From: Tidjanibacter sp.
GTDB lineage: Bacteria > Bacteroidota > Bacteroidia > Bacteroidales > Rikenellaceae
Direction: 5' to 3'
Length of the DNA stretch: 61,542 bases
NCBI GenBank assembly: GCA_017390585.1
Contig: JAFPBB010000066.1
Span: forward strand, 1 to 61,542
Below, in pieces: positions 28,137 to 57,467 of the stretch (the first letter of the stretch is position 1; each line of letters starts with the position of its first letter). Both the position numbers and the translations under genes were made by a program. Below the pieces are notes generated by a model. It saw only the letters and a program-made list of their open reading frames with translations, was not told where the DNA came from and made no database searches.

Positions 28137-28185
28137 ATTGTGGTTTTTCTGCCCGATTTTGTGGCATTTACTCACTTCGGTGGCT

Positions 28186-40091: not shown

Positions 40092-41511
40092 CCTCCTCCT
40101 TTCGCTCCTCGCCCTGCTGGGCAGCTGCTCCGTGACGCCTCCTGCAGCCGAGGTTGTTCCCCCAACCCTGCCCGATGAGTTCATCTTTGCCCGCAGTGGC
40201 GACACGGTGGTGGTTGTGGGGGTGGAGTGGTGGGAGATCTTCGGCGACACCACCCTCAATAGGCTCATCACCACAGCCGTCGAAAACAACAAGTCCCTCG
40301 CCTCCACGGCGGCCAAACTCGTGGCCGCACGCGCCTCACTCGCTGCCGTCCGTGCCTCACTCGCACCCTCCATCGACCTCTCCGTGAGTGGCTCAGCGAC
40401 CTACAACACCCCTGCGGATGGTGGGCGCAAGTCCATCGCACAGTCCTACTCCGTCCTCCCCTCCGTGAGTTGGGAAGTGCCCATCTTTGGCGGCATCGCG
40501 GCCACCTCCGAGCAGGCTCTCCACACCTACCTCGCCACCGAGTGGGGCTATCGTGCCGCGCGTCTTGCCCTCGAGGCCGAGGTGGCCACCACCTACTTCC
40601 AGTGGCTGCAATATGCACGCTCTCTCGAGATCTCCGAGCGCAGCTATGAACTCCGACTCGAGGCTCAGCAGAAGGCCGACTCGCTATTCTACTACGGCTA
40701 CTCCTCGGGTGTCGACCTCCAGCAGGCGCGCTCCCTCACCGCCACTGCCGCAGCCGACATCCCCTCCTACCGTCGTGCGATGCTCTCCACCTCGCTTGTG
40801 CTTGCCTCGCTGCTTGGCGAGGAGCCCTTCCTCCTTCCTCCGCCCACCCACTCGCGTGAGTGTGTCCACTCACAAGAGGCGCAGCTCGATGGACTCTACT
40901 GTGGCCACCTCACAGCCTCGCCGCTTCCTGCCTACGTTCCGGGTGGGTTGCCCTCGGCGATGTTGGAGCGTCGTCCGGATGTGATGGAGGCCTACCACCA
41001 AGTGGAGTCGGCGGCTGCGGCCACCCGCCTTGCGCGTGCCCACCGCTTCCCCTCCATAGCCCTCACAGGCGAAGGCGGACTCCTCTCAGCCACCCTCAAA
41101 GGGCTCACCTCCCACAACCCCGCCTATTGGACCGCCGCACTCTCGCTCACCCAACCTCTCTTCCACTTTGGCGAGCTCAAGGCCGAGGAGCAGCGGGCAG
41201 TGGAGTTGTGGCGTGCGGAGACTCTGAACTACCACGGGGTGGTGCTTCAGGCTTTGTCGGAGGTGGAGAGTGTCCTCGTCTCGGTGGAGAACTACAATCT
41301 CGAGGCTGCGCGTCAGCTCGAGTTGCTCCAGGCCAACAATCGTCTGCGCGAGATGACGTCTGCGCTCTATGGCGATGGTCTTGCCTCGTCGCTCAATCTG
41401 ATTGATGCCGAGCGCAATCTCTACTCCTCGCAACTATCCTATGTCTCTCTTCTCACCGAGCAGCTTTGTGCCTATGTCAATTTATATAAGGCGTTGGGTG
41501 GCGGCTGGTAG
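40069..41511 (+). CDS. RND efflux outer-membrane factor lipoprotein
   Basis: This 480-residue TolC/OprM-family (NodT-type) lipoprotein forms the outer-membrane channel of the RND system. The signal peptide ends in lipobox LGSC (Cys20). The two repeated helical-hairpin halves are visible: the first around LITTAVENNKSLASTAAKLV and the second around GGLPSAMLERRPDVMEAYHQ. The QPLFHFGELKAEE and LVSVENYNLEAARQLELL segments are typical. It overlaps the pump gene by 23 bp and is the last gene before the 41.5-42.0 kb repeat cluster. Confidence 0.94.
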   Translation: MKTHRLISLLLSLLALLGSCSVTPPAAEVVPPTLPDEFIFARSGDTVVVVGVEWWEIFGDTTLNRLITTAVENNKSLASTAAKLVAARASLAAVRASLAPSIDLSVSGSATYNTPADGGRKSIAQSYSVLPSVSWEVPIFGGIAATSEQALHTYLATEWGYRAARLALEAEVATTYFQWLQYARSLEISERSYELRLEAQQKADSLFYYGYSSGVDLQQARSLTATAAADIPSYRRAMLSTSLVLASLLGEEPFLLPPPTHSRECVHSQEAQLDGLYCGHLTASPLPAYVPGGLPSAMLERRPDVMEAYHQVESAAAATRLARAHRFPSIALTGEGGLLSATLKGLTSHNPAYWTAALSLTQPLFHFGELKAEEQRAVELWRAETLNYHGVVLQALSEVESVLVSVENYNLEAARQLELLQANNRLREMTSALYGDGLASSLNLIDAERNLYSSQLSYVSLLTEQLCAYVNLYKALGGGW

Positions 41512-41554
41512 GGGGGCGAGTGAATCTCACGGGTAAATTTTGCACCAAATTTCA

Positions 41555-41661
41555 AGAGCGACTTCCTCATTTACCTTTTAGTAAACTGCGGAGTCGCTCT
41601 CTCCTTTGGCCCAAAATTTCCTCCGCGATATTCACTCGCCCTGCGCTCGCCTCTCTCGCGA
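41555..41661. repeat. Hairpin repeat, copy A, with its conserved 3' flank
   Basis: AGAGCGACT (41555-41563) pairs with AGTCGCTCT (41592-41600). Inside are CC/GG, a T-C mismatch, CA/TG, a bulged C, then TTTAC/GTAAA closing a CTTTTA loop. The flank 41601-41661 (TTTGGCCCAAAATTTCCTCC and onward) is repeated after copy B. Confidence 0.85.
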
Positions 41662-41699
41662 GTCGGTTTGCCACCCCAATAAATCGCCCCCACCTCCCC

Positions 41700-41803
41700 G
41701 AGCGACTTCCTCATTTACCTTTAGTAAACTGCGGAGTCGCTCTCCTCTTTGGCCCAAAATTTCCTCCGCGATATTCACTCGCCCTGCGCTCGCCTCTCTC
41801 GCG
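41700..41803. repeat. Hairpin repeat, copy B, with its conserved 3' flank
   Basis: GAGCGACT (41700-41707) pairs with AGTCGCTC (41735-41742), with the same inner TTTAC/GTAAA stem and one T fewer in the loop. The following ~60 bp nearly match the flank of copy A. The offset from copy A is 144-145 bp. Confidence 0.85.
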
Positions 41804-41836
41804 GTAACTACGCCATTTTTCCGAGAGTCGCCCCCC

Positions 41837-41880
41837 CCTCATTTACCTTTTAGTAAACTGTGGAGTCGCTCTCTCCTTTG
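41837..41880. repeat. Hairpin repeat, copy C, degenerate outer stem
   Basis: The inner part (CCTCA, TTTAC loop GTAAA, C, TGTGG) is kept at 41837-41863, and AGTCGCTCTCTCCTTTG follows as in copy A. The 5' outer arm is replaced by a C-run, so the long stem cannot form. Confidence 0.7.
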
Positions 41881-41894
41881 CGCCCTGGTTACAC

Positions 41895-41939
41895 AAAAAA
41901 CCCCTCCGGAGTCTGTGTAGCGCAACTCGGGAGGGGGTT
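41895..41939 (-). terminator. Terminator of the large M16 peptidase gene
   Basis: AACCCCTCC (41899-41907) pairs with GGAGGGGGTT (41930-41939) apart from one extra G, flanked internally by GAG/CTC. The minus strand continues into T6. The arms resemble those of the hairpin at 48467-48508. Confidence 0.75.
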
Positions 41940-41979
41940 GGGGGTGGGGTCCAACCTAACGGTTGGCCTCAATCAGACC

Positions 41980-44802
41980 CTACTGCTGGGGGTCCATAAT
42001 GAGTTTCATAATGTTGCCGTCGGCAAGAATCTTGGCTGCAAGAGCCTTGATGTCGTCGGCAGCGATGTTGGCGAGAGTCTCCTCATAGCCGGTGGTGTTG
42101 TCGATGCCATAGAGGTCGGCATTGAGAATCCAATTCATCCAGTTGCCATTCTGCTTGAGTGCATCGGCACGCTCCTTAACCATATACTCCTTGATCTTGG
42201 CGATGTCGGCCACGTTGGGACCCTCGGTGGCGATCTTCTCGATCTCGGGAAGGAGTGCGCCACGAGCCTCGTCGGCGATCTCGGGTTTGGTGTCGAAGCC
42301 GATCATCAGAACGTAGTCTGCTTTGGCGGGGTGGCTGCTCATCTGACCCGAGCTCGACACGCCATAGGTTGCGCCCATCTCCTCACGAATCACTGCGGTG
42401 TAGCGGATGTCGAGGAGCTGGTCGAGGATCGAGAGAGCGATGCGGTTTTTGAGGGTGAGGTCGATATTGCCGCTCAGAGCGTAGTAGATGGCGGTTTTGG
42501 GCATCTCCATCACTGTGGTGAAGCGGTTGGTGCGATCGCCGGTCTGGTAGCCTACGAGGTTCTCCACATTGTAGTTCGAGGTGCCTTTGACCTTCTTGAA
42601 GGAGCCGAGGTATTTCTCCACGAGGGGTTTGAGCTCGGCCTCGTTGAAGTTACCAACGAAGTAGAAGGTGAAGTCATCGGGGTTGGCGAAGAGCTGTTTG
42701 TAGACCTTCTGATACTGCTCAAAGGTGAGGGCTTTCATATCCTCTGCGGTGCGAACTTTGATGCGCTCGGGCTGGTCGTAGAGGGTTGCGTAGAGCTCAC
42801 GCTGGAGTGCGTAGCTGGGGTCGGACTCGATGTTTGCATAGGCGTCCACGAGCTGCTCTTTCACGAGGTTGAATGCGTTCTCATCGAAGCGGGGCGAAGT
42901 GCCGTGGAGGTAGATGAGCTGGAGCATAGTCTCGAGATCCTTGGGCGAGCAGGAAGCCGCGAGGCCGTGGGTGCTGCCACCGAGGCTCATACTTACGCGC
43001 GCAGCCTTACCTGCGAGCTGCTTGTTAAGGTCGGTCATCGAGAACTCACCCACACCCTGATAGGAGTTGAAGGTGCTGAGCTGGTCGGCCATAGCCAGAT
43101 CCTCGGTTGCGATGAGTGAGGTGCCGCCGTGTGCGATGGCGCGCACGGAGATCTGGTCGGCGTTGAAGTCGGTGGGTTTGAGAACCACGCGCACACCGTT
43201 CTTGAGGGTCCAGATGGTGTTGCCAAATTTATCCTCGCTGGTCGATTTCACCTTGGAACCTTTGAGTTTGGTGCCCTCGGGGATGAGGGGTTTCTTCACG
43301 CTGGTGTCTGCATAGGGCTGGAGCTCTGCTGCATTCACGGCTGCGATGATGGCCTCAACCTCTGCGGTGGTGGGCACTGCGAGGCTCTCTTTCTCGGGCT
43401 GGCTCATCAGAACAACGTGGTTGTTGGTGGTGAACTTGGCCTGCTGAGCATACTGGTTGAGGGTGTTCAGGTCGAGCGACGAGATGAGGGTGCTGTCGAG
43501 TTTCCACTCATCCTCCACGCTGTAGATGGGGGTGTTTTTGCTGAAGTTGCTGGTGTAGCGACCCACAAACTCGCTGTTGCGGCGGTCGTTGCGGCGGTCA
43601 TAGGACTGCTGGTTGCGACGGAGAACGTTGGTCTGTGCACGCTCAAACTCCGAGGGGGTGAAGCCGAAGCGGCGAACCTTCTCAAACTCGGTGTAGATGG
43701 CCTCGAATGCCTTGAGCATCTCGCCCTCGCGGGGCTGTGCATAGAACTCGAGCATATCCATCGAGCGGGTGATGTTGCCGGCATAGTAGCCTGCGCCGAT
43801 GAAGGGTGCGCCGGGGGTCTGTGCGATGTCGTTCAGACGCTCGTTGATGATGGTCGAGATGAACGAGTCGAGGATGGAGTAGAGCTCATACACGATGGTG
43901 TTGTTCAACTCATTGGGCAGGGGCTCGCTACGAACGATGAACTCCACGCTGCTCTCGGTGAGCTCGGGGTCGGTGAAGATACCGATGGCGGGGGTCTCGT
44001 TCACGGGGATGGGGATGTACTCAATGGCCTCGGGGTTCTCCACAGCGGGGATGTCGCTCATAGTGGCAATCACCTTCTGCTCCATCTCGTCCACGTCGAA
44101 ATCACCAACAACCACGATACACTGGTTGGAGGTGTTGTACCAACGGTGGTAGAAGTCGCGGAGCTCGTCGTAGGTGAAGCTCTTGAGTCTCTCCTCGGTG
44201 CCGATGATGTTGCGTTTGGCATATTTGGTGTCGCCATAGAGGTAGGGAGCGCTCTTCTCGCGGATGCGCCACGAAGCGTCCTGACGGGTGCGGAGCTCCT
44301 CGATGATCACGCCGCGCTCGTTGTCGATCTCCTCATCGGCGAGGGTGATGTAGTAGGCCCAATCGTGGAGGATGAGCAGCACGTTATCCACAATGCTGGG
44401 GTCGGTCAGGGGCACACCCTGCATCATATATTGGGTCTGCTCCATTGCGGTCCAAGCGTTGAGGTTGGCACCAAATTTGACGCCCACGCTCTCGAGGTAG
44501 TTGATCATATTCTTCTCGGGGAAGTTCTTGGTGCCGTTGAAGGCCATATGCTCGAGGAAGTGGGCCAGACCGATCTGGAGGTCCTCCTCCTGCACAGCAC
44601 CCACGCGGTCGTAGATGTAGAAGTCGGCCTGGTTCTCGGGCTTGGCATTGTGGCGGATGTAGTAGGTGAGTCCGTTGGGGAGGACACCCTTACGCAGTTC
44701 GGGATCCTGTGGCAGAGGCTCCATCATAGGATTTCCCTGTGCCTGCACGCCCATAATGGTGAGGGCTGCAAAGGCGATGATTGTGAACAATCTTTTAATC
44801 AT
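41980..44802 (-). CDS. Secreted M16 zinc peptidase, two-repeat (PqqL-like) type
   Basis: This 940-residue protein has a signal peptide (MIKRLFTIIAFAALTIMGVQ-AQ) and is predicted periplasmic. The inverted zinc motif HFLEH is at His81, Glu84 and His85, with the third ligand in NERGVIIEELRTRQ. The C-terminal half is a second M16 repeat without the metal site (GGTSLIATEDLAMADQLSTF onward), as in pitrilysin/PqqL-like fused enzymes. This contrasts with the split two-gene pair at 18.1-20.6 kb. Substrates are unknown. It is monocistronic with its own terminator. Confidence 0.94.
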   Translation of the reverse strand: MIKRLFTIIAFAALTIMGVQAQGNPMMEPLPQDPELRKGVLPNGLTYYIRHNAKPENQADFYIYDRVGAVQEEDLQIGLAHFLEHMAFNGTKNFPEKNMINYLESVGVKFGANLNAWTAMEQTQYMMQGVPLTDPSIVDNVLLILHDWAYYITLADEEIDNERGVIIEELRTRQDASWRIREKSAPYLYGDTKYAKRNIIGTEERLKSFTYDELRDFYHRWYNTSNQCIVVVGDFDVDEMEQKVIATMSDIPAVENPEAIEYIPIPVNETPAIGIFTDPELTESSVEFIVRSEPLPNELNNTIVYELYSILDSFISTIINERLNDIAQTPGAPFIGAGYYAGNITRSMDMLEFYAQPREGEMLKAFEAIYTEFEKVRRFGFTPSEFERAQTNVLRRNQQSYDRRNDRRNSEFVGRYTSNFSKNTPIYSVEDEWKLDSTLISSLDLNTLNQYAQQAKFTTNNHVVLMSQPEKESLAVPTTAEVEAIIAAVNAAELQPYADTSVKKPLIPEGTKLKGSKVKSTSEDKFGNTIWTLKNGVRVVLKPTDFNADQISVRAIAHGGTSLIATEDLAMADQLSTFNSYQGVGEFSMTDLNKQLAGKAARVSMSLGGSTHGLAASCSPKDLETMLQLIYLHGTSPRFDENAFNLVKEQLVDAYANIESDPSYALQRELYATLYDQPERIKVRTAEDMKALTFEQYQKVYKQLFANPDDFTFYFVGNFNEAELKPLVEKYLGSFKKVKGTSNYNVENLVGYQTGDRTNRFTTVMEMPKTAIYYALSGNIDLTLKNRIALSILDQLLDIRYTAVIREEMGATYGVSSSGQMSSHPAKADYVLMIGFDTKPEIADEARGALLPEIEKIATEGPNVADIAKIKEYMVKERADALKQNGNWMNWILNADLYGIDNTTGYEETLANIAADDIKALAAKILADGNIMKLIMDPQQ

Positions 44803-45027
44803 AATCTTTTGTGTTTGTTTATTAGGTTGTTATGTGTTTGTTTGCGCCTGGGAAGGTGTGCCGTGTGGGTGGTCTCACGGCCTAATTCACCAAATTCTCT
44901 GCAATATACGTCTTTTTTGCTGAATTATTATCACATCCAACGATTTTTTTACACTCCCACCCGTTCTATTTTACTCCTCGGAGGGGCAATTTGGGACAGC
45001 GGTGGGTGCAATCTCGGGAAAAATAAC

Positions 45028-45035
45028 TATCTTTG
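45028..45035 (+). promoter_or_regulatory. -7 element of the acyl-ACP thioesterase gene
   Basis: TATCTTTG, 34 bp before the ATG at 45070. No matching -33 TTG is found. The remaining ~220 bp of the divergent gap back to 44803 show no other recognisable signal. Confidence 0.55.
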
Positions 45036-45069
45036 CTCTCCGTAAACACCCCTTCCACACGAGGCAACA

Positions 45070-45804
45070 ATGGAGAAAAAGCGTTCCTACACCTATCGCA
45101 TAGAACCCTATCAGGCCGACCTCTCGCAGCGTCTCACCCTGACAGGGCTTGCCGACTACATCCTCACGGCCGCCTTCACCGATGCGCTCTTTGTGGGCTA
45201 CGACAACAGCGCCTTTGGTCCCCACAGTGGCTGGGTGTTGCTCCGTATGGCTATGGATGTGCGCCGACTCCCGAGGCAGCTCGAAAACATCACTATTCGA
45301 GTCTGGATAAGCGATGTCAACCGACTCGCTTCGACCCACAACTTCGAGGTGCTCGACCAGGAGGGCAACACCATTGCTCTCTCCTCGACCATCTGGGCCG
45401 TCATCGACCTCGAGAGCCGAAAGTCGCTTACGTTCAACGATTTCCCCGACTTCTGCAATCGGGTGGTGGACCGCGATCAGGAGCCTGCAATGAGTGCTCC
45501 GTTGCGCCTTTCGACCCCCGAACTCAATGGTCGCTACACCCACCAGGTCCTCTACAGCTACATCGACGGCAACGGCCACACCTACTCCATCAACTACCTC
45601 CGTATGGCGCTCGACACGCTCGACATCGCCGAGCTCACCACGGACCGCTCCGTGAGGGTCGATATGAACTATATGCACGAGACCCACTACGGCGAACGCC
45701 TCACCATCCAGACCGACCACCACCCCTCGCCGCTCTTCGAGATTCTGGCGGAGGATGGCACCCCTGCCTGCCGCATATTCATCCAATGGAATCCCGCACA
45801 ATAG
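45070..45804 (+). CDS. Acyl-ACP thioesterase
   Basis: This 244-residue protein of the acyl-ACP thioesterase (FAT) family has two hot-dog domains and releases free fatty acids from acyl-ACP. The N-terminal domain runs from YRIEPYQADLSQRLTLTGLA to about residue 135. The second begins near YTHQVLYSYIDGNGHTYSIN, where the N-x-H-like catalytic segment lies. It shares a metabolic theme with acpP/fabF and the acyl-CoA ligase elsewhere in the window. It is monocistronic with its own promoter and terminator. Chain-length preference is not readable. Confidence 0.9.
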   Translation: MEKKRSYTYRIEPYQADLSQRLTLTGLADYILTAAFTDALFVGYDNSAFGPHSGWVLLRMAMDVRRLPRQLENITIRVWISDVNRLASTHNFEVLDQEGNTIALSSTIWAVIDLESRKSLTFNDFPDFCNRVVDRDQEPAMSAPLRLSTPELNGRYTHQVLYSYIDGNGHTYSINYLRMALDTLDIAELTTDRSVRVDMNYMHETHYGERLTIQTDHHPSPLFEILAEDGTPACRIFIQWNPAQ

Positions 45805-45810
45805 ATACGA

Positions 45811-45848
45811 AAGAGAGGCCTCTCCGAGATGGAGGGGCCTCTCTTGTA
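45811..45848. terminator. Bidirectional terminator thioesterase / DUF721 gene
   Basis: A 15-bp stem with one wobble pair (45811-45825 with 45831-45845, loop GAGAT) lies 7 bp after the thioesterase stop, between convergent genes. Confidence 0.8.
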
Positions 45849-45872
45849 TTGCTGCGGCGGCCACTGCTCGCC

Positions 45873-46163
45873 CTATTTCACAATGATTGTGCGGACCAAC
45901 TCCTCACCCAAGGCGGAGTTGAGCTCGTAGCGGAAGTTCTCACGGTTCATAAAGATCTCGTGGCGCACAACCGAGGGGCCCACCTTGACATACAACACCC
46001 CGCGCACGAAGTTGACCTCCGTGACGTCGGCAAGCCTATCGCCCACAATGGTGCGCCACACCTCGGGGATGGAACCCTCGGCTATGAGGCGTTTGATGAA
46101 GGGGTGCTCATCCTTCCAGCCACTCCAGAGGGAGCCTATGCGTGTTGGGAAACAGCGTCTCAT
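45873..46163 (-). CDS. DUF721 / DciA-like protein
   Basis: This 96-residue protein belongs to the DUF721 family; the DciA members load or assist the replicative helicase DnaB in bacteria lacking DnaC/DnaI. The conserved core is PEVWRTIVGDRLADVTEVNF, then VRGVLYVKVGPSVVRHEIFM and ELNSALGEELVRTIIVK. It lies 61 bp downstream of recF on the same strand, a common pairing. No DNA-binding extension is present; it is the minimal domain. Helicase loading is inferred from the family. Confidence 0.85.
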   Translation of the reverse strand: MRRCFPTRIGSLWSGWKDEHPFIKRLIAEGSIPEVWRTIVGDRLADVTEVNFVRGVLYVKVGPSVVRHEIFMNRENFRYELNSALGEELVRTIIVK

Positions 46164-46224
46164 TATCTGTGTGTTTTTTGTTGATCTACAAATTGTTATG
46201 GTGTGGTCGAAGACCCGTGGGTCC

Positions 46225-47328
46225 CTACTCCTCGCTGGTGGTGACGTTGCCCCCCTCGACGCAGAAGAGTCGGTAGGGGATGGAGCGTTGGCGGAGTAGC
46301 GAGGCTATGCGTTCGCGGTTGCAGTCGGTGATGAAGACCTGACCATACTCGCTTCCCGTGGTGATGGCAATGAATCGCCCGAGGCGCTCCTCGTCGAGCT
46401 TGTCGAAGAGGTCGTCGAGCAGGAGTATGGGGCGCTCACCGAGGCGCTCACCGAGGAGGGTGTACTGTGCCAATTTGAGCGCCAGGAGGAAGGATTTTTG
46501 CTGCCCCTGCGAGCCAAACTTACGGAGTGGGTAGCCCCCGATGGTCATCACCACATCGTCGCGGTGGATGCCACAAGTGGAGAATCCCATCACCACATCC
46601 TTGCCACGCGAGCCCCTCAGCAGGTCGATGAACGGGGTGGTATTGAGCTCGGAGCGGTAGGTGAGCTCAACGCTCTCCGCGCAGCCCGAAATCTCGGCGT
46701 AGAAGCTCTCCACAAGGGGTGCCAGGCGCGCGAGCACCTCGCGGCGGAGGGAGGCTATGCGCTCTCCGAGGTCGGCAAGTTGTTCGTCGATGACGTCGAG
46801 CAACTCGGGTGGGAGCATTTCGCCCTGCTTGAGGAGGGTGTTGCGCTCGGCCAGGAGTCGGTTGTAGCGCATTGTGGTGTCGAGATAGGGGTGGTCGAGT
46901 TGGGAGATGAAGGCATTGAGCCATCGGCGTCGCTCCTCGGCGGCGTCGCTCACCAGCGAACCGTCGGCAGGGGAGACCATCACAATGGGGATGACTCCTA
47001 TGTGGTCGGCCAGGCGTTCATACTCCTTGCCACAGAATTTGAGCGACTTACCCTCGCCACGCTTGAAGGCACACGCCACGTTGAGAGCGGCCTCGCCATC
47101 GGAGCAGTAGTCGCCCGAGAGCATAAAGAAGGGTGCTCCGTGGAGGATGCTCTGTCCGTCGGTCATCTGGAGGGAACTCTTGCTCATCGAGAGGTAGTGG
47201 ATGGCGTCGACGATGTTGGTCTTTCCGGCGCCGTTGGGGCCCACGATGCAGTTGATTCCCGGGGAGGGGAGCAGGTCGCACTCGGCAATATTTTTGAAAT
47301 TCAGGAGGGTTAATTTTTCGAGTCTCAT
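46225..47328 (-). CDS. recF: DNA replication/repair protein RecF
   Basis: This 367-residue SMC-like ATPase helps load RecA at single-strand gaps. The Walker A motif GPNGAGKT is at residues 30-37. The signature segment is KFGSQGQQKSFLLALKLAQY, and the Walker B/D-loop is ILLLDDLFDKLDEERL with Asp305-Asp306. It starts MRLEKLTLLNFKNIAEC, as expected. It heads a two-gene unit with the DUF721 gene. Its -7 box is at 47354-47361 (minus strand). The usual dnaA-dnaN neighbourhood is not present. Confidence 0.96.
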   Translation of the reverse strand: MRLEKLTLLNFKNIAECDLLPSPGINCIVGPNGAGKTNIVDAIHYLSMSKSSLQMTDGQSILHGAPFFMLSGDYCSDGEAALNVACAFKRGEGKSLKFCGKEYERLADHIGVIPIVMVSPADGSLVSDAAEERRRWLNAFISQLDHPYLDTTMRYNRLLAERNTLLKQGEMLPPELLDVIDEQLADLGERIASLRREVLARLAPLVESFYAEISGCAESVELTYRSELNTTPFIDLLRGSRGKDVVMGFSTCGIHRDDVVMTIGGYPLRKFGSQGQQKSFLLALKLAQYTLLGERLGERPILLLDDLFDKLDEERLGRFIAITTGSEYGQVFITDCNRERIASLLRQRSIPYRLFCVEGGNVTTSEE

Positions 47329-47353
47329 CCTTCTTGTTGCGATTTTGGTCTCT

Positions 47354-47361
47354 CAAAGGTA
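47354..47361 (-). promoter_or_regulatory. -7 element of recF
   Basis: Minus-strand TACCTTTG, 25 bp before the recF ATG. No -33 TTTG at the standard distance. Confidence 0.55.
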
Positions 47362-47399
47362 GCAATTTTGCCGGAAAAGAGAAAAAAAATGGGTGCCAC

Positions 47400-47431
47400 T
47401 TGCTGTTTTTCCACAAAAAGGTTTACTTTTG
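47400..47431 (+). promoter_or_regulatory. Promoter of the TPR membrane protein gene
   Basis: TTG at 47400-47402, a 21-bp spacer and TACTTTTG at 47424-47431 face the gene at 47477, divergent to the recF promoter. Confidence 0.7.
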
Positions 47432-47476
47432 TGGTTCGAATCCGCAGATTATAAACGACAAAATACAAATACTACT

Positions 47477-48163
47477 ATGGCAACAAACAAAATTCAAGAG
47501 CCCACCTACGAGGAGGTTGTAACCGAGACCGTGGGCAAAACCGAGAAATTCTTTGAGAAGAATCAGAAACTTATCACCATCCTGCTCGTAGCCATCATCG
47601 TGGTTATCGGCGGCTACTTCGCAAACAAGTATCTCATCGCACAGCCCAAGGCTGAGAAGGCTTCGGCAGAGATGTTTGCTGCAATCCAGCACTTCGGCAC
47701 CGAGGAGTGGCAGATCGCTCTCGACGGCGACGGCAACTATGCAGGTTTCCTCGAGATCGTGGACAACTACGGTTCCACCCCCCAGGGTTCGCTCGCAGCA
47801 CACTACGCAGGCATCTGCTACATCAAGCTCGGCGACAAGGAGAATGCTCTCAAGTACCTCGCAAAGTATGACGCAGCAAGCGGTGCTCCCGCAGAGATCG
47901 TCAATGCACAGAACATCGGTCTCCAGGCCGACATCATCGCCGATGGTGGCGACCTCGCAAAAGCTGCTGAGCTCTATCGCAAGGCCGTTGCAGAGAGTGC
48001 CAACAGCCTCACTGCTCCCTTCTATCTGAAGAAACTCGGTCAGGTTGAGGCTGCTCTTGGTAACAAAGAGGCCGCTCTTGCAGCCTACCAGCGCATTGCC
48101 GACGAGTACTTCACCTCGCTTGAGGCTCGCGACATCGACGCTCTCATCGGTGGCTTGAAGTAG
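47477..48163 (+). CDS. Membrane-anchored TPR-type protein
   Basis: This 228-residue protein has a short charged N-terminus, one hydrophobic span at about residues 32-52 (LITILLVAIIVVIGGYFAN), and a helical periplasmic or cytosolic domain with tetratricopeptide-like repeats (GSLAAHYAGICYIKLGDKEN; APFYLKKLGQVEAALGNKEA). The architecture resembles YfgM-like proteins that work near the Sec translocon or in envelope assembly, but that role is an inference. I chose ATG 47477 because the earlier in-frame start (47393) lies before the promoter. A terminator follows at 48221. Confidence 0.82.
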   Translation: MATNKIQEPTYEEVVTETVGKTEKFFEKNQKLITILLVAIIVVIGGYFANKYLIAQPKAEKASAEMFAAIQHFGTEEWQIALDGDGNYAGFLEIVDNYGSTPQGSLAAHYAGICYIKLGDKENALKYLAKYDAASGAPAEIVNAQNIGLQADIIADGGDLAKAAELYRKAVAESANSLTAPFYLKKLGQVEAALGNKEAALAAYQRIADEYFTSLEARDIDALIGGLK

Positions 48164-48220
48164 TCCCCCGACCGCAGGGTGCGACTCGGCGAGAGTCGAC
48201 ACATACCGAGACGGAAATAG

Positions 48221-48256
48221 AAACTCCGGAAGCAATGAGCTTCTGGAGTTTTTTTT
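48221..48256 (+). terminator. Terminator of the TPR gene
   Basis: A 13-bp stem with one wobble (48221-48233 with 48239-48251) is followed by a T8 run. Confidence 0.85.
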
Positions 48257-48268
48257 GTGGGTGTGCGC

Positions 48269-48332
48269 CACCTCGGCGGAATGTGGGTCCCACCTCGGCG
48301 GAATGTGGGTGTGACTATTGGCGACTATTGGC
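48269..48332. repeat. Short tandem repeats
   Basis: CACCTCGGCGGAATGTGGGT occurs at 48269-48288 and 48291-48310; GACTATTGGC occurs at 48313-48322 and 48323-48332. Confidence 0.8.
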
Positions 48333-48466
48333 GAGAGTGTTGTCCCTGCGCGGCTGGCAAAACCTGTGATGTGTAATGGTGTTGCCGTTGTAGAATCCTG
48401 CGTTCTGGAATGGTATGGCCGTTGTCACATACTTTGTTGGTGGGGTTGCAAGATGATTCCACTACC

Positions 48467-48508
48467 GACACAAAAAACCCCTCCAGACTCGGAGGGGGTT
48501 TTTGTGTC
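48467..48508 (-). terminator. Terminator of the FadL-family gene
   Basis: An 18-bp stem with one mismatch (48467-48484 with 48491-48508, loop AGACTC) contains AAAAAA on the + strand, giving a T-run on the minus strand. Confidence 0.8.
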
Positions 48509-48576
48509 GGATAGGTGCGAGGGATGGCGCAACCATCCCTATGTTGTGTGCCGAGAGCTCCGGCACGGCAATCGGC

Positions 48577-50190
48577 TTAGAAGAGCACGTTGTAGGTGAC
48601 GCCGATGGTCGTGGAGGAGTGCTTGGTGTTGTTCATCGTGGGGCCGCTGACGTTGATGTTGGTCGAGGCGTCGGTGTAGGAGTAGTAGTACATCACGCTG
48701 TTGGTGTAGTGTGCCGACGAGAGGGTACAGACCACATCGAGGCTCGAGCCACTCGCAAAGCGCCAACCTGCACCAAAGGAGTAGTGGGTGCTGTGGGTCT
48801 TGTAGGTGCCATAGAAGTGGTTGCCGTCGTCGTTGTATTTGGTTGCGGCGCTGTTCAGGGGCGAGCCGTAGTAGGCATAGCCGCCACGCAGATAGAGGCT
48901 CGAGAAGGGACGCACCTCCACACCTGCGCGGAAGTTGGAGGCGGTGCCGAGGTCGGTCTCCACATCCTGCTCAAAGAGCTCCTCCAGACCGCGGGTACGC
49001 ATCCTCATTCCTCCATACCACACCTTGTCGTAGTCCACCGAGATGAGTGCCTTGTTGGAGAGTGCATAGGAGACTCCGAGGAGGAGTTTTGCGGGGGAGG
49101 TGTAGGTGTAGCCATAGGAGCTCAGGAGCGAGTTTTTGACGTAGCCGTCGCCATTGGCGAAGTGGGTCTCCATAGTGGCGCTATAGTCGCGGGTGATGCT
49201 CATTGCGGTGGGGGTGTGGAAGGCGATGCCGAGTCGGAGCGGGGCCACGGGGCGCACGATGGCTCCGATTTTGAAGTTCACGCCCGATCCGTAGGTCGAC
49301 ACGATGGGGGTGTAGCCCGTGTAGGTGAGTTCCTCGGCTCCAGTGGCACCGTCGTAGGACTCCTCGAAGTTGTAGAAGATATTCTGGACGATGTCCTGCA
49401 CCGTGAGGGTGGTGCCGAGATAGAGGATGTTGCCGAAGTTGAAGCCCATCGAGAAGTCATACTCGCCCACCGAGCCGTCGCTCTCGACATTCAGACGCGA
49501 GTCGACCCTGTTCTCGAGGGGCACACCCGAGACGATGTAGTTGCCGAGAAACTTCTTGTCCTCGCCTAAAGCGGGGTCGATGAGGTAGGTCTGATAGGCG
49601 AGGATGCCGCCCCACTCGTCGACGTAGATGTTGTTGTTGCGGAAGGGGTCGGCACTGGAGTTGAGTGCTGTGGGGTCGATGCCATACATCTGCTCGGCAA
49701 AGAACTCACCTATGGTCACCTCGCCATTGTCCCATCGGCCGCTGTTGCGGAAGGAGAGGTCGGCGAGTTGGTTGTAGCCAAAGCCTACGGAGACGCTCAC
49801 CAACGAACCCGAACTCTGATAGAGGTTGAGCACGGTGCCGAGTTGGTTGAAGCCGAAGTTGCTCTTGCTCGCGGTGCCTGCCTGGGTGTCGGAGTTGGAG
49901 CGAGTGCGGTCGAAGGCCACCGACACCGAGAGTGCCGAGGTGCGGAACATTCCGAGGCCTGCGGGGTTGATGGCCATACTCGAGATGTCGGCTCCGAGGG
50001 ATGTGTATGCGCCACCCATTGCTGCCACCCTCGAAGAGAGGAAGGTGTGCTCGGTGTTGCCATATTTAGCAGCCTCCATATGGCTCATATTTGCGGGAGA
50101 GACAACCTCGCCGCCGAATATGGTGGTCTGTGCTGTGGCTCCGAGGGTGCAGAGTGTTGCTGCCAGGAGCGCCAATATGCTTTTTTTCAT
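48577..50190 (-). CDS. FadL/OmpP1-family outer membrane protein
   Basis: This 537-residue predicted outer-membrane beta-barrel has a signal peptide (MKKSILALLAATLCTLGATA-Q). The N-terminal hatch-like region has FLSSRVAAMGGAYTSLGADI and the NPAGLGMFR motif that marks the FadL/TodX/OmpP1 family. Alternating beta strands follow to a C-terminal NVLF. It would pass hydrophobic molecules such as fatty acids across the outer membrane; the actual substrate is unknown. It lies 60 bp downstream of the Ser/Arg-tailed lipoprotein gene on the same strand and may share its ECF-like promoter. Confidence 0.88.
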   Translation of the reverse strand: MKKSILALLAATLCTLGATAQTTIFGGEVVSPANMSHMEAAKYGNTEHTFLSSRVAAMGGAYTSLGADISSMAINPAGLGMFRTSALSVSVAFDRTRSNSDTQAGTASKSNFGFNQLGTVLNLYQSSGSLVSVSVGFGYNQLADLSFRNSGRWDNGEVTIGEFFAEQMYGIDPTALNSSADPFRNNNIYVDEWGGILAYQTYLIDPALGEDKKFLGNYIVSGVPLENRVDSRLNVESDGSVGEYDFSMGFNFGNILYLGTTLTVQDIVQNIFYNFEESYDGATGAEELTYTGYTPIVSTYGSGVNFKIGAIVRPVAPLRLGIAFHTPTAMSITRDYSATMETHFANGDGYVKNSLLSSYGYTYTSPAKLLLGVSYALSNKALISVDYDKVWYGGMRMRTRGLEELFEQDVETDLGTASNFRAGVEVRPFSSLYLRGGYAYYGSPLNSAATKYNDDGNHFYGTYKTHSTHYSFGAGWRFASGSSLDVVCTLSSAHYTNSVMYYYSYTDASTNINVSGPTMNNTKHSSTTIGVTYNVLF

Positions 50191-50250
50191 TGCTGTGGTG
50201 TGTGTTGACGTTGTGTGATGTGTGGTTGATGTTGCCTGCGGAGCGGGGGC

Positions 50251-51798
50251 CTACCTGCCACCGCGACTCGAACTGCTGCTGCGACTCGAGGAGCTGCTAC
50301 TGCTGCTTCGGCTCGAGCTTCCGCTGCTGAAACTGCTCGACGAACGCGACGAGGAGCTCACGCTCGAGCTGCGACGCGACGATGACGAGGTCGAACTACT
50401 GCTGCGACTCGAAGAGGAGTTGCTGTTGTTGCGTTTGGAGGAGCTCACCGAACTGCTGCTGTTGTTGCGTTTGGTGGAGTTAGTCACCTTCACGCCTCCG
50501 TTGTGGGTGTTGATCTTCACGCCGCTCGAGGAGTTGCCCACCTTGGAGCCTCGGCTCGAGGAGTTGCTGGTGCCGGAGCTGTTGCCGCCACGCACGCTGC
50601 CCGAAGGTCGGATGGTGGTGCCGCTGAGCGAGCCCGACAGGGAGCCGGGTGTGAGCGAGGGCACATTGTCGTTGTTGCCATTGTCGTTGTTGCGACCACC
50701 GCCGAGATTGTTGTCGCGGATGGGGGTGTTTCTGTCACCACGGGTGTTGTTGTCGCGGATGGGTGTGCTTCCGGGGCGGCTCACGGTGGTGCCGGGGCGT
50801 GCGGAGCTGCTGCCGGGGCGCCTACCGCCACCATTGTTATCCACCGAGATGAGGGTTGCGCCGCGCGAGTTGTCGCGTCCGCCTATGCGCTCACTGTAGG
50901 TGGGGCGGTTGCCTCCGCCGGGGCGTACACTCGAGGAACCGCTGCCGGTGCCGTAGCTGGGGCGGTGTACCACAGGGGGCCTGTGGTCACCCACACCGGG
51001 ACCCGAGGGTTTGTGGTGGGGGTGGTGATAGCCGGGGTGGTGGCTGTGGTGGGGGTGGTGGTGTCCGTGGGGAGCGTGCCAATAGAGGTGGCTGTAGTAG
51101 TGGTAGTAGGGGTCGCATCCCCAGTAGGGGGAGTTCCAGCCCCAATAGTCGTAGTAGCCGTAGCTATAACCATAGTAGTAGGGGTTGTAGCCATAGTGGT
51201 AGCCATAGTAATAGGGGTTGTTCCAGCTGCCAAACATATTGGTGATGTAGCGAGGCTCCACCCACACCTGATCGCCCACAATCATCACGGTGTAGAATGC
51301 GGGGTCGTAGGCCAGAGTGAGGAAGTAGGCGTCGCCGTAGCGATAGTCGTAGTAGGAGGAGGGCAGACGGTAGGTGAGCGACGAGAAGCCCTGCAAGCGC
51401 CTTGCATAGGCACTGCTGTAGTCGTCGACATAGATACTATTGTAGTTGCTCACGCCCGTGCTCGCGCCCGTAGTGGGCACAACCACACCTGCCACGGCAT
51501 CCACGCTCTCCACATCACCGAGCAGATAGTCGATGTCTGCTGCGGCATTGGAGGAGGCCACCATTGCGGCTATGCGTCGCTCGTTTTCGGCCCTGATGGC
51601 TGCTTCGGCCTCCTTCTCGATGCGCTCTTGTTCGGCCAGGGCGGCCCTGTCGTGTACGGCATAGAGGTCGTCGATGTAGGCTGCGGCTCCTGTGGAGGCG
51701 GTGGTGTTCAGCTGTAGGAATGCTCCACACGAAGTCAAGGCGGGTGCCACAATCATCAGCACCGCGGCCATAAGTAGTCTATTTCTCATAGGTCTCAT
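50251..51798 (-). CDS. Lipoprotein with Tyr/Gly/His region and Ser/Arg tail
   Basis: This 515-residue predicted lipoprotein has lipobox LTSC (Cys24). Residues ~35-80 are Ala/Glu-rich and helical, and ~100-185 form a folded region (YSSAYARRLQGFSSLTYRLP). Residues ~185-240 are Tyr/Gly/Asn-rich, ~240-262 are His/Pro-rich, and ~265-400 are Gly/Asn/Arg-rich. The last ~115 residues are almost only Ser with regularly placed Arg. Such low-complexity regions suggest a flexible, surface- or periplasm-exposed, possibly metal-binding or cell-wall-contacting protein. I recognise no family. The ECF-like motif at 51850-51880 lies about 52 bp upstream. Confidence 0.75.
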   Translation of the reverse strand: MRPMRNRLLMAAVLMIVAPALTSCGAFLQLNTTASTGAAAYIDDLYAVHDRAALAEQERIEKEAEAAIRAENERRIAAMVASSNAAADIDYLLGDVESVDAVAGVVVPTTGASTGVSNYNSIYVDDYSSAYARRLQGFSSLTYRLPSSYYDYRYGDAYFLTLAYDPAFYTVMIVGDQVWVEPRYITNMFGSWNNPYYYGYHYGYNPYYYGYSYGYYDYWGWNSPYWGCDPYYHYYSHLYWHAPHGHHHPHHSHHPGYHHPHHKPSGPGVGDHRPPVVHRPSYGTGSGSSSVRPGGGNRPTYSERIGGRDNSRGATLISVDNNGGGRRPGSSSARPGTTVSRPGSTPIRDNNTRGDRNTPIRDNNLGGGRNNDNGNNDNVPSLTPGSLSGSLSGTTIRPSGSVRGGNSSGTSNSSSRGSKVGNSSSGVKINTHNGGVKVTNSTKRNNSSSSVSSSKRNNSNSSSSRSSSSTSSSSRRSSSVSSSSRSSSSFSSGSSSRSSSSSSSSRSSSSSRGGR

Positions 51799-51849
51799 AT
51801 CTTTTGTGTTCGTTCGTTTCTCGGTGGGGAGTGGTGCTCCCTCCTACAC

Positions 51850-51880
51850 TATAGACGCAAAAAGGGGGCAAAACGTTGCA
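51850..51880 (-). promoter_or_regulatory. Possible ECF-sigma-type promoter
   Basis: On the minus strand TGCAAC, a 17-bp spacer and CGTCTATA form a near-textbook ECF layout (AAC ... CGTC). The + strand block GGCAAAACGTTGCACGAGGG (from 51867) is identical to the one upstream of 13157. Confidence 0.55.
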
Positions 51881-51950
51881 CGAGGGTGCAAAAAATTTTC
51901 TATTTATTTGATGCCCGAGGGTAAATGCACCATATTTCGGCAAAAAAGTG

Positions 51951-51958
51951 TACCTTTG
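51951..51958 (+). promoter_or_regulatory. -7 element of proS
   Basis: TACCTTTG with a leader of about 105 nt to the ATG at 52070. No -33 at the standard distance. Confidence 0.55.
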
Positions 51959-52069
51959 TGGCGACTTTGTCGCCCCACCTTCGCAAAATTAATACATTTG
52001 TCGAAGATTCCCATAGGGGCAACCAACTTTTTTGAACGCAAAAATATTATAACGCAACTATAAAAAACA

Positions 52070-53554
52070 ATGGCAAAAGAACTCAAACAACTCACCCCCC
52101 GCGAGGAGAACTACTCGCAGTGGTACAACGACCTCGTTGTGAAGGCAGGTCTGGCCGAGAACTCGGCCGTAAGGGGCTGTATGGTCATCAAACCCTATGG
52201 CTACGCAATCTGGGAGAAGATGCAGCGCGCTCTCGACGATATGTTCAAGGCCACCGGCCACCAGAACGCCTACTTCCCCTTGTTCATCCCCAAATCCTTC
52301 TTCAGCCGTGAGGCCGACCACGTTGAGGGCTTCGCAAAGGAGTGTGCAGTGGTCACCCACTACCGCCTGATGAACGACCCCGAGGGTAACGGTGTGGTTG
52401 TCGATCCCGAGGCTCGCCTCGAGGAGGAGCTCATCGTGCGTCCCACCTCCGAGACCATCATCTGGAATACCTATAAAAACTGGATCCACTCCTACCGCGA
52501 CCTCCCCATCCTCTGCAACCAGTGGGCCAACGTTGTTCGTTGGGAGATGCGTACCCGTCTCTTCCTCCGCACCGCCGAGTTCCTCTGGCAGGAGGGCCAC
52601 ACCGCCCACGAAACCCGCGAGGAGGCCGTGGCAGAGGCACAGAAGATGATTCGCGTCTATGCCGACTTCGCCCAGAATTGGATGGGTGTGCCCGTGATTA
52701 TGGGTACCAAGAGCGCCAATGAGCGCTTCGCAGGTGCTGTGGACACCTTCACCATCGAGGCCCTGATGCAGGATGGTAAGGCTCTCCAGAGCGGTACCTC
52801 CCACTTCCTCGGTCAGAACTTCGGTAAGGCTTTCGACGTGCAGTTTGCCACCCGCGACGGTGGTATGGACTATGCGTGGGCAACTTCGTGGGGTGTGTCG
52901 ACCCGTCTGATGGGTGCGCTCATTATGGCCCACTCCGACAACAACGGTCTTGTGCTGCCTCCCAAGCTCGCCCCCATTCAGGTGGTGATGATCCCCATCT
53001 ACAAGGGCGACGAGGAGTTGCAGAGGATGACTGCCGAGCTCGAGAAGATTGCCGACAAGCTCCGCGCCAAAGGTATCAGCGTGAAGATCGACAACCGCGA
53101 CAACGTGCGCTCGGGCTTCAAGTTTGCCGAGTATGAGCTCAAGGGTGTGCCTGTGCGACTCGTTGTTGGTCCTCGCGACCTTGCCAACGGCACCGTGGAG
53201 ATGATGCGTCGCGACACTCTCGAGAAGGAGAACGTCGCTCTGGAGGGCATTGAGAACCTCGTGGAGACCACCCTCGAGCAGATGCAGCAGACCATCTTCC
53301 AGAAGGCTCTCGACTTCCGAAACTCTATGATTACCAAGGTGGACACTTGGGAGGAGTTCAAGGATGTGCTCGAGAATAAGGGTGGCTTCATCCTTGCACA
53401 TTGGGATGGCACCACCGAGACCGAGGTGGCAATCAAGGAGGCCACCAAGGCTACCATCCGTTGCATCCCCTTCGACACTGTCGACGAGGATGGCGTGTGT
53501 GTATTCAGCGGCAAGCCTTCGAAGCGTCGCGTTTTGTTTGCCCGCTCCTACTAA
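52070..53554 (+). CDS. proS: Prolyl-tRNA synthetase, archaeal/eukaryote-like type
   Basis: This 494-residue class II synthetase charges tRNA-Pro. Motif 1 includes [17 protein letters not shown], motif 2 is [20 protein letters not shown], and motif 3 lies around [16 protein letters not shown]. The catalytic core is followed by the anticodon-binding domain ([17 protein letters not shown]) and the C-terminal zinc-type extension ending in [10 protein letters not shown]. There is no INS editing insertion, as in the short ProS type common in Bacteroidota. ATG 52070 follows a purine-rich AAAAAACA leader. It is monocistronic. Confidence 0.97.
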
Positions 53555-53596
53555 AAAAAGCACATCTCGCTCGCGACTGCGGCGTTGCACTTCGAT

Positions 53597-53640
53597 AAAT
53601 CCCCTCCTCATTTGCGTTCAGCAAACTGCGGAGGGGATTT
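53597..53640. repeat. Hairpin repeat, copy D, with a compensated stem
   Basis: AAATCCCCTCC (53597-53607) pairs perfectly with GGAGGGGATTT (53630-53640). Inside are the same T-C mismatch, CA/TG pair and bulged C as in copy A, then TTTGC/GCAAA closing a GTTCA loop. Compared with copy A, the outer stem is replaced on both sides and the inner A-T pair is G-C. Confidence 0.85.
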
Positions 53641-53680
53641 TCTTGTGCGCCTTGCATTCATCGAGCGATATGCACTTTTT
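53630..53680. repeat. 51-bp direct repeat, first copy
   Basis: This segment (right arm of copy D through GCGATATGCACTTTTT) recurs without visible change at 53866-53916. Confidence 0.85.
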
Positions 53681-53702
53681 AAGTCGTGGGGGAGCACTAT
53701 CT

Positions 53703-53770
53703 TTCAGCAAGCTGCGGAGCCGTTACTTCGTTTGGCAAAAAATTCCCTCCGCGATATGCGCTTTTTACCG
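53703..53770. repeat. Partial hairpin-repeat copy E
   Basis: TTCAGCAAGCTGCGGAG is the 3' half of the hairpin only. It is followed by TTTGGCAAAAAATTCCCTCC and GCGATATGCGC, matching the flank seen after copies A and B. Confidence 0.7.
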
Positions 53771-53865
53771 TTCCCGAGTCTGGTGGATTTTCACCACACT
53801 TCGACAAATTCCCTCCGCTATTTTGCAGTTTTTACCTCTTTGGACCGTTGTGTCTATTACCTGCA

Positions 53866-53916
53866 GGAGGGGATTTTCTTGTGCGCCTTGCATTCATCGA
53901 GCGATATGCACTTTTT
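53866..53916. repeat. 51-bp direct repeat, second copy
   Basis: Matches 53630-53680. The left arm that would complete the hairpin is absent here (CTATTACCTGCA precedes it). Confidence 0.85.
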
Positions 53917-54098: not shown

Positions 54099-54755
54099 TT
54101 ATTTACCCACGGTCTGTGCCAGAACGGGCAGGAAGTTTTCGCCCAAGCCGAGCAGAGCCACAACCTCGCTGCTACGCAGGCTGCCGCGGGTGATGGACTT
54201 CAGGCCGTGGCCCGCAGCGTAGAGGTTCACATTCTCCGCATAGCCCGCAGCATCCTGACCGCAGAGGAACTCCGCCTTGGTGCGAGGGATGCCCCTGTTC
54301 TCATATTTGCCCAGGTCGGCGATGTAGACGATGTTGAGGGCGGCCTCATAGGCAAAATCCTGCGAGGCGGTGAGGGCGCGGTGGTCACCCTCGACAACGC
54401 GAGTGAGGGTGTGGGTGGCGGAGGAGTAGAGGTAGACTCCCTCGGCGGTGAAGGCATAGAGGCTCAGGGGATAGAGGGCTATGGCCGATGGTGCGGTGAG
54501 GTGCCCATCGGGACGGTTTACTCCTGCGGCTGCCCAGAGTACCTCGCTGAGTTCCTCGAGCGAGAGTGGTTCGGAGGTGTAGTTGCGCGAGGAGGCGCGG
54601 AGCGAGAGTGCTCGATTGATGGGGAGTCCGCCGTCGAGATCGGGTTGGAGCAGGGCGATGGTCTCTCCGTGTGGAATGGGGGTGGAGGGCTTGGTGTTGT
54701 TGTTGCCGCAGGCTATGAGTGCCAGGGCGAGGAGTGTGAGCAGGATGTTTTTCAT
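54099..54755 (-). CDS. Nitroreductase family lipoprotein (SagB-like)
   Basis: This 218-residue protein combines a lipoprotein signal (LALIACG, acylated Cys16) with a nitroreductase/SagB-type fold. The family markers are SSRNYTSEPLSLEELSEVLW, AAAGVNRPDG, TAPSAIALYPLSLYAF and, near the C-terminus, AAGHGLKSITRGSL. Such proteins bind FMN and reduce quinones, nitro-groups or iodotyrosine-like substrates; the substrate here is unknown. The start at 54755 gives a proper signal peptide; the frame stays open upstream to 54941 but includes the promoter region. Periplasmic or outer-membrane location is inferred. Confidence 0.85.
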   Translation of the reverse strand: MKNILLTLLALALIACGNNNTKPSTPIPHGETIALLQPDLDGGLPINRALSLRASSRNYTSEPLSLEELSEVLWAAAGVNRPDGHLTAPSAIALYPLSLYAFTAEGVYLYSSATHTLTRVVEGDHRALTASQDFAYEAALNIVYIADLGKYENRGIPRTKAEFLCGQDAAGYAENVNLYAAGHGLKSITRGSLRSSEVVALLGLGENFLPVLAQTVGK

Positions 54756-54841
54756 AGGGGTAGTTTTTTTGTGATGTTTAGTGTTTACTTGAGTGAGGTG
54801 GGCCACCGCTCGGAGTCTTTGGTTGGAGTGGGGGCCTACTG

Positions 54842-54849
54842 CAAATATA
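54842..54849 (-). promoter_or_regulatory. -7 element of the nitroreductase-like gene
   Basis: Minus-strand TATATTTG, 86 bp before the ATG. The -33 is weak. Confidence 0.5.
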
Positions 54850-54963
54850 AGTAAAAGGTGTGACAATTCCGACACGATGGGGTGTTCTCTCCCCTTGTTT
54901 TGTTCGCTTTTTGCCCCGAAACAAACTTTTTTCACTCCCAAAGTGATTTTTTTACCCGAAAAG

Positions 54964-57174: not shown

Positions 57175-57251
57175 TTGTTATTAGAAAAACACATCGTGTG
57201 AAATAATCATTAATTTTTCCTCCCCTACGAGGAAGAGGCTCTGTTTCAATT

Positions 57252-57467
57252 CAAAATTCAAAATGCAAAATTCAAAATTTTCCCACTCTAAGTTAGAGGG
57301 GGTGGCACGAAGTGCCGGGGGCGTGTGTCTTTTGCAATTCAAAATTATCCTTTTCGAAGCTTTTTGTAAAAAGCTTCACCAAAAACTTTTAGTGCAGACT
57401 TTACTCTACCCTTTTAAGGTCGTGCGCCGAAGGCCCATTAATTTTGAATTTTGCATTTTGAATTTTG
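57252..57467. mobile_element. MITE-like element with 28-bp terminal inverted repeats
   Basis: The left end (57252-57279) and right end (57440-57467) are identical 28-bp inverted repeats made of CAAAATT/CAAAATG heptads. Inside are CTCTAA/TTAGAG (57286-57298), GGCAC-GAA-GTGCC (57304-57316), GAAGCTTTTT/AAAAAGCTTC (57356-57377) and GCC-GAA-GGC (57426-57434), modules shared with 15.4-15.7 kb. No transposase is encoded. The element sits in the 403-bp pckA-hemW gap; the left part of the gap (57175-57251) holds only a CCTCCCCTACGAGG remnant. Confidence 0.65.

Follow-up and report, generated by a model that had tools for sequence, protein, structure and literature searches.

Hairpins in two gaps of a Tidjanibacter contig as probable copies of a mobile fold-back element, with ERIC as its likely distant kin

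The hairpins that recur in two intergenic gaps of contig JAFPBB010000066.1 of Tidjanibacter sp. (Rikenellaceae; the window, which is the whole stretch analysed, of 61,542 nucleotides) are best explained as copies of a non-autonomous mobile fold-back element. They would belong to a family that spans Bacteroidota and Proteobacteria, with ERIC as a probable distant offshoot, and once inserted they would become hairpins in the 3′ untranslated region (UTR) of the gene upstream. We put the probability of this reading at about 0.66. The fold-back, its tip, the paired arms, the marks that flank the tip, the target-site duplications in two relatives and the mostly in-sense placement at the 3′ ends of genes are read from the sequence itself, and from them we infer a mobilising enzyme, transcription of the copies and an effect on mRNA.

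The first-pass annotation of the window had described four hairpins, A (41555-41600), B (41700-41742), C (41837-41863) and D (53597-53640), and their positions and architecture are confirmed. The hairpin had been taken as the whole unit; it is real, but is only the tip of a longer element of ~120-145 nt that folds back and pairs from end to end. All four copies are present, and the gap that holds D contains in addition a fifth copy, a tip-less remnant and a duplicate of the right half of D. Bit scores in the following list come from models built on 33 Bacteroidota copies (R2) and on 118 copies, ERIC excluded (R3); a further model (R1) was built on 19 copies of the window's own genome.

41512..41642, + strand: element A, full length, starting directly 3′ of the TAG stop of a tolC-like gene; core model match 41538-41617, centred 66 nt past the stop codon; z -10.3; R2 43.1 bits, R3 48.8 bits.
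41690..41785, + strand: element B, second copy of the array, with a broken outer left arm and approximate ends; R3 match 41704-41754, 41.7 bits.
41809..41890, + strand: element C, third copy of the array, with the outer stem lost and the tip retained; R3 24.4 bits.
53555..53680, + strand: element D, full length, starting directly 3′ of the proS TAA stop, its right end a T run; core model match 53578-53657; z -7.7; R2 62.7 bits, R3 64.4 bits.
53689..53768, + strand: element E, truncated in its left arm, with the tip and the right half present and the ends approximate; repeat family D1; no R3 match at E 0.01.
53769..53838, + strand: tip-less remnant with outer arms, a by-eye reading of the sequence.
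53866..53916, + strand: duplicate of the right half of D, 100% identical to 53630-53680; repeat family D4.

The 130-nt stretches round six copies of this genome each fold into a single long stem (z -4.9 to -10.3), and none of 200 shuffles equalled any of the six. The stem includes the outermost arms, which differ between loci. The tip is near-invariant, CCTCA-YTTRC-loop-GYAAR-CTGCGG, with a retained T.C mismatch and a bulged C. It is surrounded by the inner stem, an adjoining stem and the outermost arms, all three of which vary between copies yet remain paired. Many copies carry GCGTT to the left of the tip and GCCTTG to the right, although neither mark is universal (seen in 48 and 78, respectively, of 114 scanned copies). 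The shared flank reported earlier, TTTGGC with CTCCGCGATAT, fits A, B and E; D, with TCTTGTGCGCC and GAGCGATAT, does not conform. Readable units in the Cryomorpha genome G321 are imperfect end-to-end palindromes of 119-145 bp, where ERIC has ~127 bp, and those of a second Bacteroidota relative, G107, measure 113-142 bp, mostly 121. A- and T-tracts lie at both ends of 28 of 71 copies in the congeneric relative G018 (Tidjanibacter, Rikenellaceae), compared with 0.6% of random positions.

Some copies are more complex. At four G321 loci (L400, L401, L414 and L418) the inner stem of the tip is entirely replaced (CAGTCATCCCGCCCCAGCGGGACT), and some of these have other sequence nested in the arms, forming composite mosaic elements. 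The window holds two further repeat pairs, 15673-15740 with 57355-57422 and 15556-15614 with 15748-15806 (85% and 95% identity), containing AAGCTTTTTGTAAAAAGCTT and GACTTTTTATAAAAAGTC palindromes. It also has AATTCAAAATTCAAAATT stretches at 28100-28139, 34706-34745, 57240-57279 and 15341-15380, and similar AATTGAAAATTG stretches lie after some G018 elements. Rfam 15 at gathering score gave no match over the elements of the window and seven further loci, matching only a tRNA and an unrelated small RNA; weaker hits look like chance. A consensus-terminator scan gave a single hit, which lies outside the elements and on the minus strand, and the gap of D has none; the loop limit of the scan excludes 130-nt stems, so that it speaks neither for nor against termination.

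The two relatives bear target-site duplications. In G321, reached via the Cryomorpha ignava locus L089, 12 of the 20 copies with recognisable ends are flanked by identical 6-mers, all of the form TANNTA (cross-copy control, 9.5% with at least 4), a further nine of the 29 copies lacking recognisable ends. G107 has 4-bp A/T-rich duplications at 12 of 18 readable copies (cross-copy control 16.7%), with three more unreadable. These duplications argue that the element is mobile, and support the non-autonomous mobile unit that the first-pass annotation had listed among three possible roles. The element is short, with terminal inverted repeats, as in a miniature inverted-repeat transposable element (MITE), the target-site duplication being seen in the relatives only. 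At locus A no tip is present in the 11 other orthologues displayed (20 genomes matched); G018 has a stretch like the left arm there.

Confinement of the copies to the two window loci, which had been set beforehand as fatal to a structural element, is excluded. The window's genome has 22 core-pattern matches (at most one mismatch) vs 0 for a reversed-pattern control, a lower bound because the genome is 84.7% complete and several copies lie near contig ends, and core matches are present in 15 of 23 congeneric genomes. Six of the eight congeneric genomes without a core match are 98-99% complete. The covariance-model search that the annotation had proposed extends the family to other Bacteroidales, R1 matching 18/295 genomes of the order at E <= 1e-4; G018 alone has 99 R1 hits, with one place counted on both strands. 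The exact pattern occurs in at least 117 stretches of named genomes, and among the 80 matches listed the records are mostly labelled Bacteroidota, together with Pseudoalteromonas, Marinobacterium, Kangiella, an Alteromonadaceae and a Gallionellaceae, these taxon names being the records' own. R2 matches 7/7 genomes picked from the exact-pattern matches, mostly over the full model length; its best E values in the five proteobacterial genomes are 2e-9 to 8e-12, save for one genome at 5e-8. It also matches 17/148 genomes in the order of one proteobacterial carrier, the carrier itself included. The tips of these relatives show compensatory changes, CC/GG to GC/GC and TTTAC/GTAAA to TTGGC/GCCAA. Viral contigs gave 0 exact matches to one pattern and plasmids no match to element D; phages were not searched.

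The elements are placed mostly after genes, and in sense. Both element-bearing gaps of the window are convergent, their flanking genes having Pfam matches:

40069..41511, + strand: outer membrane efflux (TolC-like) gene, upstream of A (PF02321).
41980..44802, - strand: M16 peptidase gene, convergent (PF05193/PF00675).
52070..53554, + strand: prolyl-tRNA synthetase gene (proS), upstream of D (PF09180/PF03129/PF00587).
54099..54941, - strand: nitroreductase-family gene, convergent (PF00881).

Convergent placement had been noted for all copies, and this holds for the window but not for G018, where only 31/79 copies lie in convergent gaps and 44/79 between co-directional genes. (Of 82 G018 hits, three at stretch edges were set aside, leaving 79 placeable with a codon-usage gene caller trained on 11 Pfam-matched window genes.) The anticipated bias toward 3′ ends is borne out, with 75/79 G018 copies in sense after the 3′ end of the upstream gene, where the mix of gaps predicts about half. 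The suggested role as a shared 3′-end stabiliser agrees with this as regards position. The copies are also close to the stop codon, 47/75 being centred 56-67 nt after it, which means that they start at about the stop. On the fetched contigs of the window's genome 23/23 copies at 11 loci are in sense, the copies within arrays not being independent, and the first copy is centred 57-66 nt past the stop in 11/11. In other genomes, with self-trained gene callers, the in-sense share is 18/24 (G321), 12/18 (G107), 14/15 (G317), 9/11 (G442) and 1/2 (G360), where 0.42-0.51 is expected; copies centred within 56-67 nt of the stop number 9/18 in G321, 8/9 in G442 and 0/1 in G360. An earlier calling of open reading frames by length (43/68 in sense) gave a misleading table of contexts, because long antisense frames are common in the window's genome, and was superseded by the codon-usage caller. 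Very long antisense frames lie opposite rpoC and the pyruvate:ferredoxin oxidoreductase gene, at 528-4976 and 21060-24674 of the window.

The identity of the stop codon is biased as well. Element-bearing genes of G018 end in TAA 48, TAG 18 and TGA 1 times, against 143/169/38 in element-free genes, so that TGA is depleted (1/67 vs 38/350, p = 0.011), and the ratio of TAA to TAG is raised (48 to 18 vs 143 to 169). That the final base of the stop codon comes from the element is only partly consistent with this, as CGAGC-type copies follow both TAG and TAA. A further asymmetry in G018 is orientation with the leading strand, seen in 72/82 copies by third-position skew and in 66/73 by GC skew (|skew| >= 0.02). 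A copy in a convergent gap is in sense to one gene whichever way it points, and there leading-strand copies outnumber the others by 26 to 5 (p = 2e-4). In G018 57/233 leading vs 8/182 lagging gene ends carry an element (p = 8e-9). These stretches were picked around copies, raising the base rates equally for both strands. Over the G018 stretches L293-L332 orientation tracks the leading strand (72/82) better than it does the local coding-strand majority (59/82). By the skew of short stretches 20/23 copies of the window's genome are in leading-strand orientation, and elsewhere the counts are 9/11 (G442), 10/15 (G317), 2/2 (G360), 17/29 (G321) and 7/21 (G107). Leading-strand polarity, clear in G018, ambiguous in G321 and absent in G107, is thus not a general trait of the family.

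The stems change in pairs, and do so beyond shuffled or slid controls. Among 19 copies of the window's genome 88.6% of pair cells are standard, with a covariation of 0.417 vs 0.167 after shuffling; for 71 distinct G018 copies, in an alignment fitted to the model, the values are 93.4% and 0.552 vs 0.180. By one measure, how many further types of pair occur, the copies do not clearly exceed the shuffles, of which 112/500 and 59/500, respectively, reach the same value. In an alignment-free test on 71/82 G018 copies, own arms were paired at 7.5/8 vs 5.5 with the arms of other copies, and the outer arms gave -31.3 kcal/mol vs -21.5 with other copies' arms and -16.3 when shuffled. The proS site offers a comparison at one place. 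An element is found in 5/21 orthologues, with its arms rewritten (three by pattern, two by eye); by eye, the tip is a perfect palindrome in G018, and in G011 it is inverted within flanks of the same orientation.

The annotation had taken the kept pairing as a sign of selection on structure. The pairing stands, but its cause has another possible reading, in which paired changes arise from DNA mechanics, namely template switching and conversion of the central tract, with no selection. Because the stem is nested, exchange of the central tract between copies shifts both inner arms together, and by eye the types of outer arm and inner stem co-occur in many combinations; the healed and inverted tips at proS are as expected from template switching, and the replaced inner stems of G321 also fit. 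Such repair should erase the T.C mismatch, which is kept in 66/71 located G018 tips, and the compensatory change of tip pairs between phyla, such as CC/GG to GC/GC, also counts against this reading. The pairing is probably maintained in part by DNA-level mechanisms and whole central-tract exchange, beyond point-by-point compensation; that mechanics should replace selection altogether is a serious contender that falls short of even odds, and one that is compatible with the mobile element. Less likely, and on balance doubtful, is a host 3′-end module, a structural terminator or stabiliser after leading-strand genes that is spread by duplication and gene conversion and is not primarily mobile. 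The sense placement, the excess at leading-strand gene ends and the terminal A/T tracts would suit it, as would the common proS site and, by eye, the hairpin followed by a T run at proS in the element-free G005, G014 and G009. It sits badly with the target-site duplications of G321 and G107, with the scatter of occurrence across phyla, and with the absence of a match from 8/23 congeneric genomes and of the tip from locus A in the displayed orthologues.

An REP/RAYT system, in which a Y1 HUH transposase mobilises the hairpins, would account for an imperfect hairpin with a conserved mismatch and for the strand polarity of G018. Y1_Tnp is missing from 15/15 carriers, on which ground RAYT is largely rejected as mobiliser and the REP-like role that had been suggested is unsupported in the RAYT sense. 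Target-site duplications, present in G321 and G107, are not expected from Y1 transposition. The elements are several times as long as the 20-40 bp given for REPs in part of one source (PMC3733652), and we regard this explanation as highly improbable. The relation to ERIC is a separate question. On 150 kb of E. coli the three ERICs are the top three R3 hits (E 0.008-0.022, 21.4-23.2 bits) and lie in register, and as copies of one family they are one observation rather than three. By local alignment (Smith-Waterman) with three G321 copies, the seven top-scoring stretches out of 9,966 windows overlap ERICs, at 31 and 30 vs 29, a small margin obtained with queries picked after their ERIC-like tips had been noticed. 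At ybhJ-ybhI the sequence common to the ERICs begins immediately 3′ of the ybhI stop, in sense, and the ERIC after cusC is also in sense. These similarities might be convergence of two palindromic MITE families, to which the weak model scores, the short shared motif and the small alignment margin would point; the TCAYTTAC/GTAARCT tip shared together with same-register GCGTT/GCCTT marks, the first rank of the ERICs and the G321 copies with CAGTCA..CTCCTTG tips in a Bacteroidota frame speak for kinship. Those Cryomorpha copies plausibly form a bridge to ERIC. On such sequence likeness convergence appears unlikely, if by no means negligible, and ERIC is rather likely to be distant kin of the window elements. 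Thus the statement that no named family matches should be amended, ERIC being the closest named kin.

A number of observations weigh against the reading of a mobile family with ERIC as a branch. Concerning ERIC, the fourth R3 hit in E. coli is a non-ERIC site that scores nearly as high (20.9 bits), R2 also ranks the ERICs first but at E 0.4-0.8, R1 finds no ERIC match, and one of the three, at pgk-fbaA, is antisense to its genes. Concerning mobility, the Tidjanibacter copies have no clear target-site duplication, the duplications differ in length (4 bp in G107, 6 bp in G321), and the G107 count was obtained after the right boundary had been moved one base, a first pass having given 2/16. Nor did a mobiliser emerge: Y1_Tnp is in 0/15 carriers and in one of the 23 genus genomes, a non-carrier; a reverse transcriptase is unsupported, with RVT_1 in 3/15 carriers and 0/8 non-carriers; and none of the 13 inspected of 41 end-like matches in G321 encloses a transposase-sized insert, 11 having a right end within 612 bp and two having no right end found. 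A plain TA target is insufficient, since TA occurs on average 5.7 times within the first 100 nt of 240 element-free 3′ ends, and it leaves the preference for TAA over TAG unexplained. Stop adjacency, strong in G018, G442 and G321, is partial in G317 (5/14) and weak in G107 (2/12), and the latter lowers our confidence both in this reading and in the wider superfamily considered below. Finally, the 66/71 count of retained mismatches comes from hits of a consensus-favouring model, and only 12/71 G018 copies find their best partner, out of all 71, in their own right arm, because the copies form subfamilies.

If the hairpins are indeed mobile fold-back elements, an enzyme supplied in trans would insert them at A/T-rich targets containing TA. 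Insertions at the TA of TAA and TAG stops would be favoured or retained, as these leave the end of the reading frame in place. Transcription of the upstream gene would continue through the inserted copy, which would make up its 3′ UTR and function, or at least be tolerated, as a hairpin. The hairpin might then alter the fate of the upstream mRNA by capping it, terminating it or destabilising it, the last as passages of a review describe for Yersinia ERICs (PMC2229807). We propose that the tip is conserved because its mismatch and bulge have to be recognised by some protein, be it the mobilising enzyme or an RNA- or DNA-binding protein of the host, and that the arms, while diverging by central-tract exchange and template switching, stay paired because the foldback is required.

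More tentatively, and with the odds somewhat against it, there may be one ancient fold-back superfamily in at least two phyla with ERIC as one branch, in which the centre is conserved, several branches lie in sense at stops, and a widely shared factor reads the folded tip, so that each insertion provides a ready-made 3′ UTR. A fixed centre with free ends and arms would be the inverse of ordinary MITEs, and ERIC-like kin could help to explain the spread of such repeats. Questions about the mobiliser become testable, given fresh target-site duplications around relatives in Cryomorpha ignava QSSC 1-22, a named strain of flavobacteria, the sharp stop-codon rule of several lineages and the conserved tip. 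For the Bacteroidales the elements would form a large layer of 3′ UTRs absent from Rfam, and they may break assemblies; in G018 an element follows 51/204 sampled leading-strand gene ends, a figure inflated by the choice of stretches around copies. In the open-licence literature we recognised no report of ERIC-like elements in Bacteroidota.

How do the elements compare with known systems? The MITEs of Porphyromonas gingivalis, known as BrickBuilt, are likewise non-autonomous inverted-repeat elements of Bacteroidales, compared here by description only, from part of one report (PMC4596501). REP and BIME repeats with RAYT share a conserved, imperfect, extragenic hairpin in many copies, but the window family is 120-145 bp long, has target-site duplications in relatives and has no Y1_Tnp in its carriers. 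Extrahelical bases and tandem arrays made integron attC sites, with their attC boxes and IntI recombinase, a further class to consider. YPAL/RU-2, Correia/NEMIS and RUP are, by the description in parts of a 2007 review (PMC2229807), further bacterial mobile repeats that are small and palindromic, and some of them have TA targets or act on mRNA. In those parts movement of such repeats by a transposase is said to have no experimental support as yet, and ERIC (also IRU or RU-1) is given as a 127-bp palindromic repeat with TA termini and a target-site duplication, whose effect on upstream mRNA depends on orientation. The ERIC tip, TCACTTAC-loop-GTAAGCTCC between GCGTT and GCCTT, shares TCAYTTAC/GTAARCT and the same-register GCGTT/GCCTT marks with the window family, in which the tip is usually CCTCA/CTGCGG and the arms, the termini and the hosts differ. 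ERIC repeats are a classic target for typing. The hosts named in the relevant part of another review are Enterobacteriaceae and Vibrionaceae (PMC10969869); Tidjanibacter, of the Rikenellaceae, stands outside both, and the window elements are therefore better called ERIC-like than filed as ERIC.

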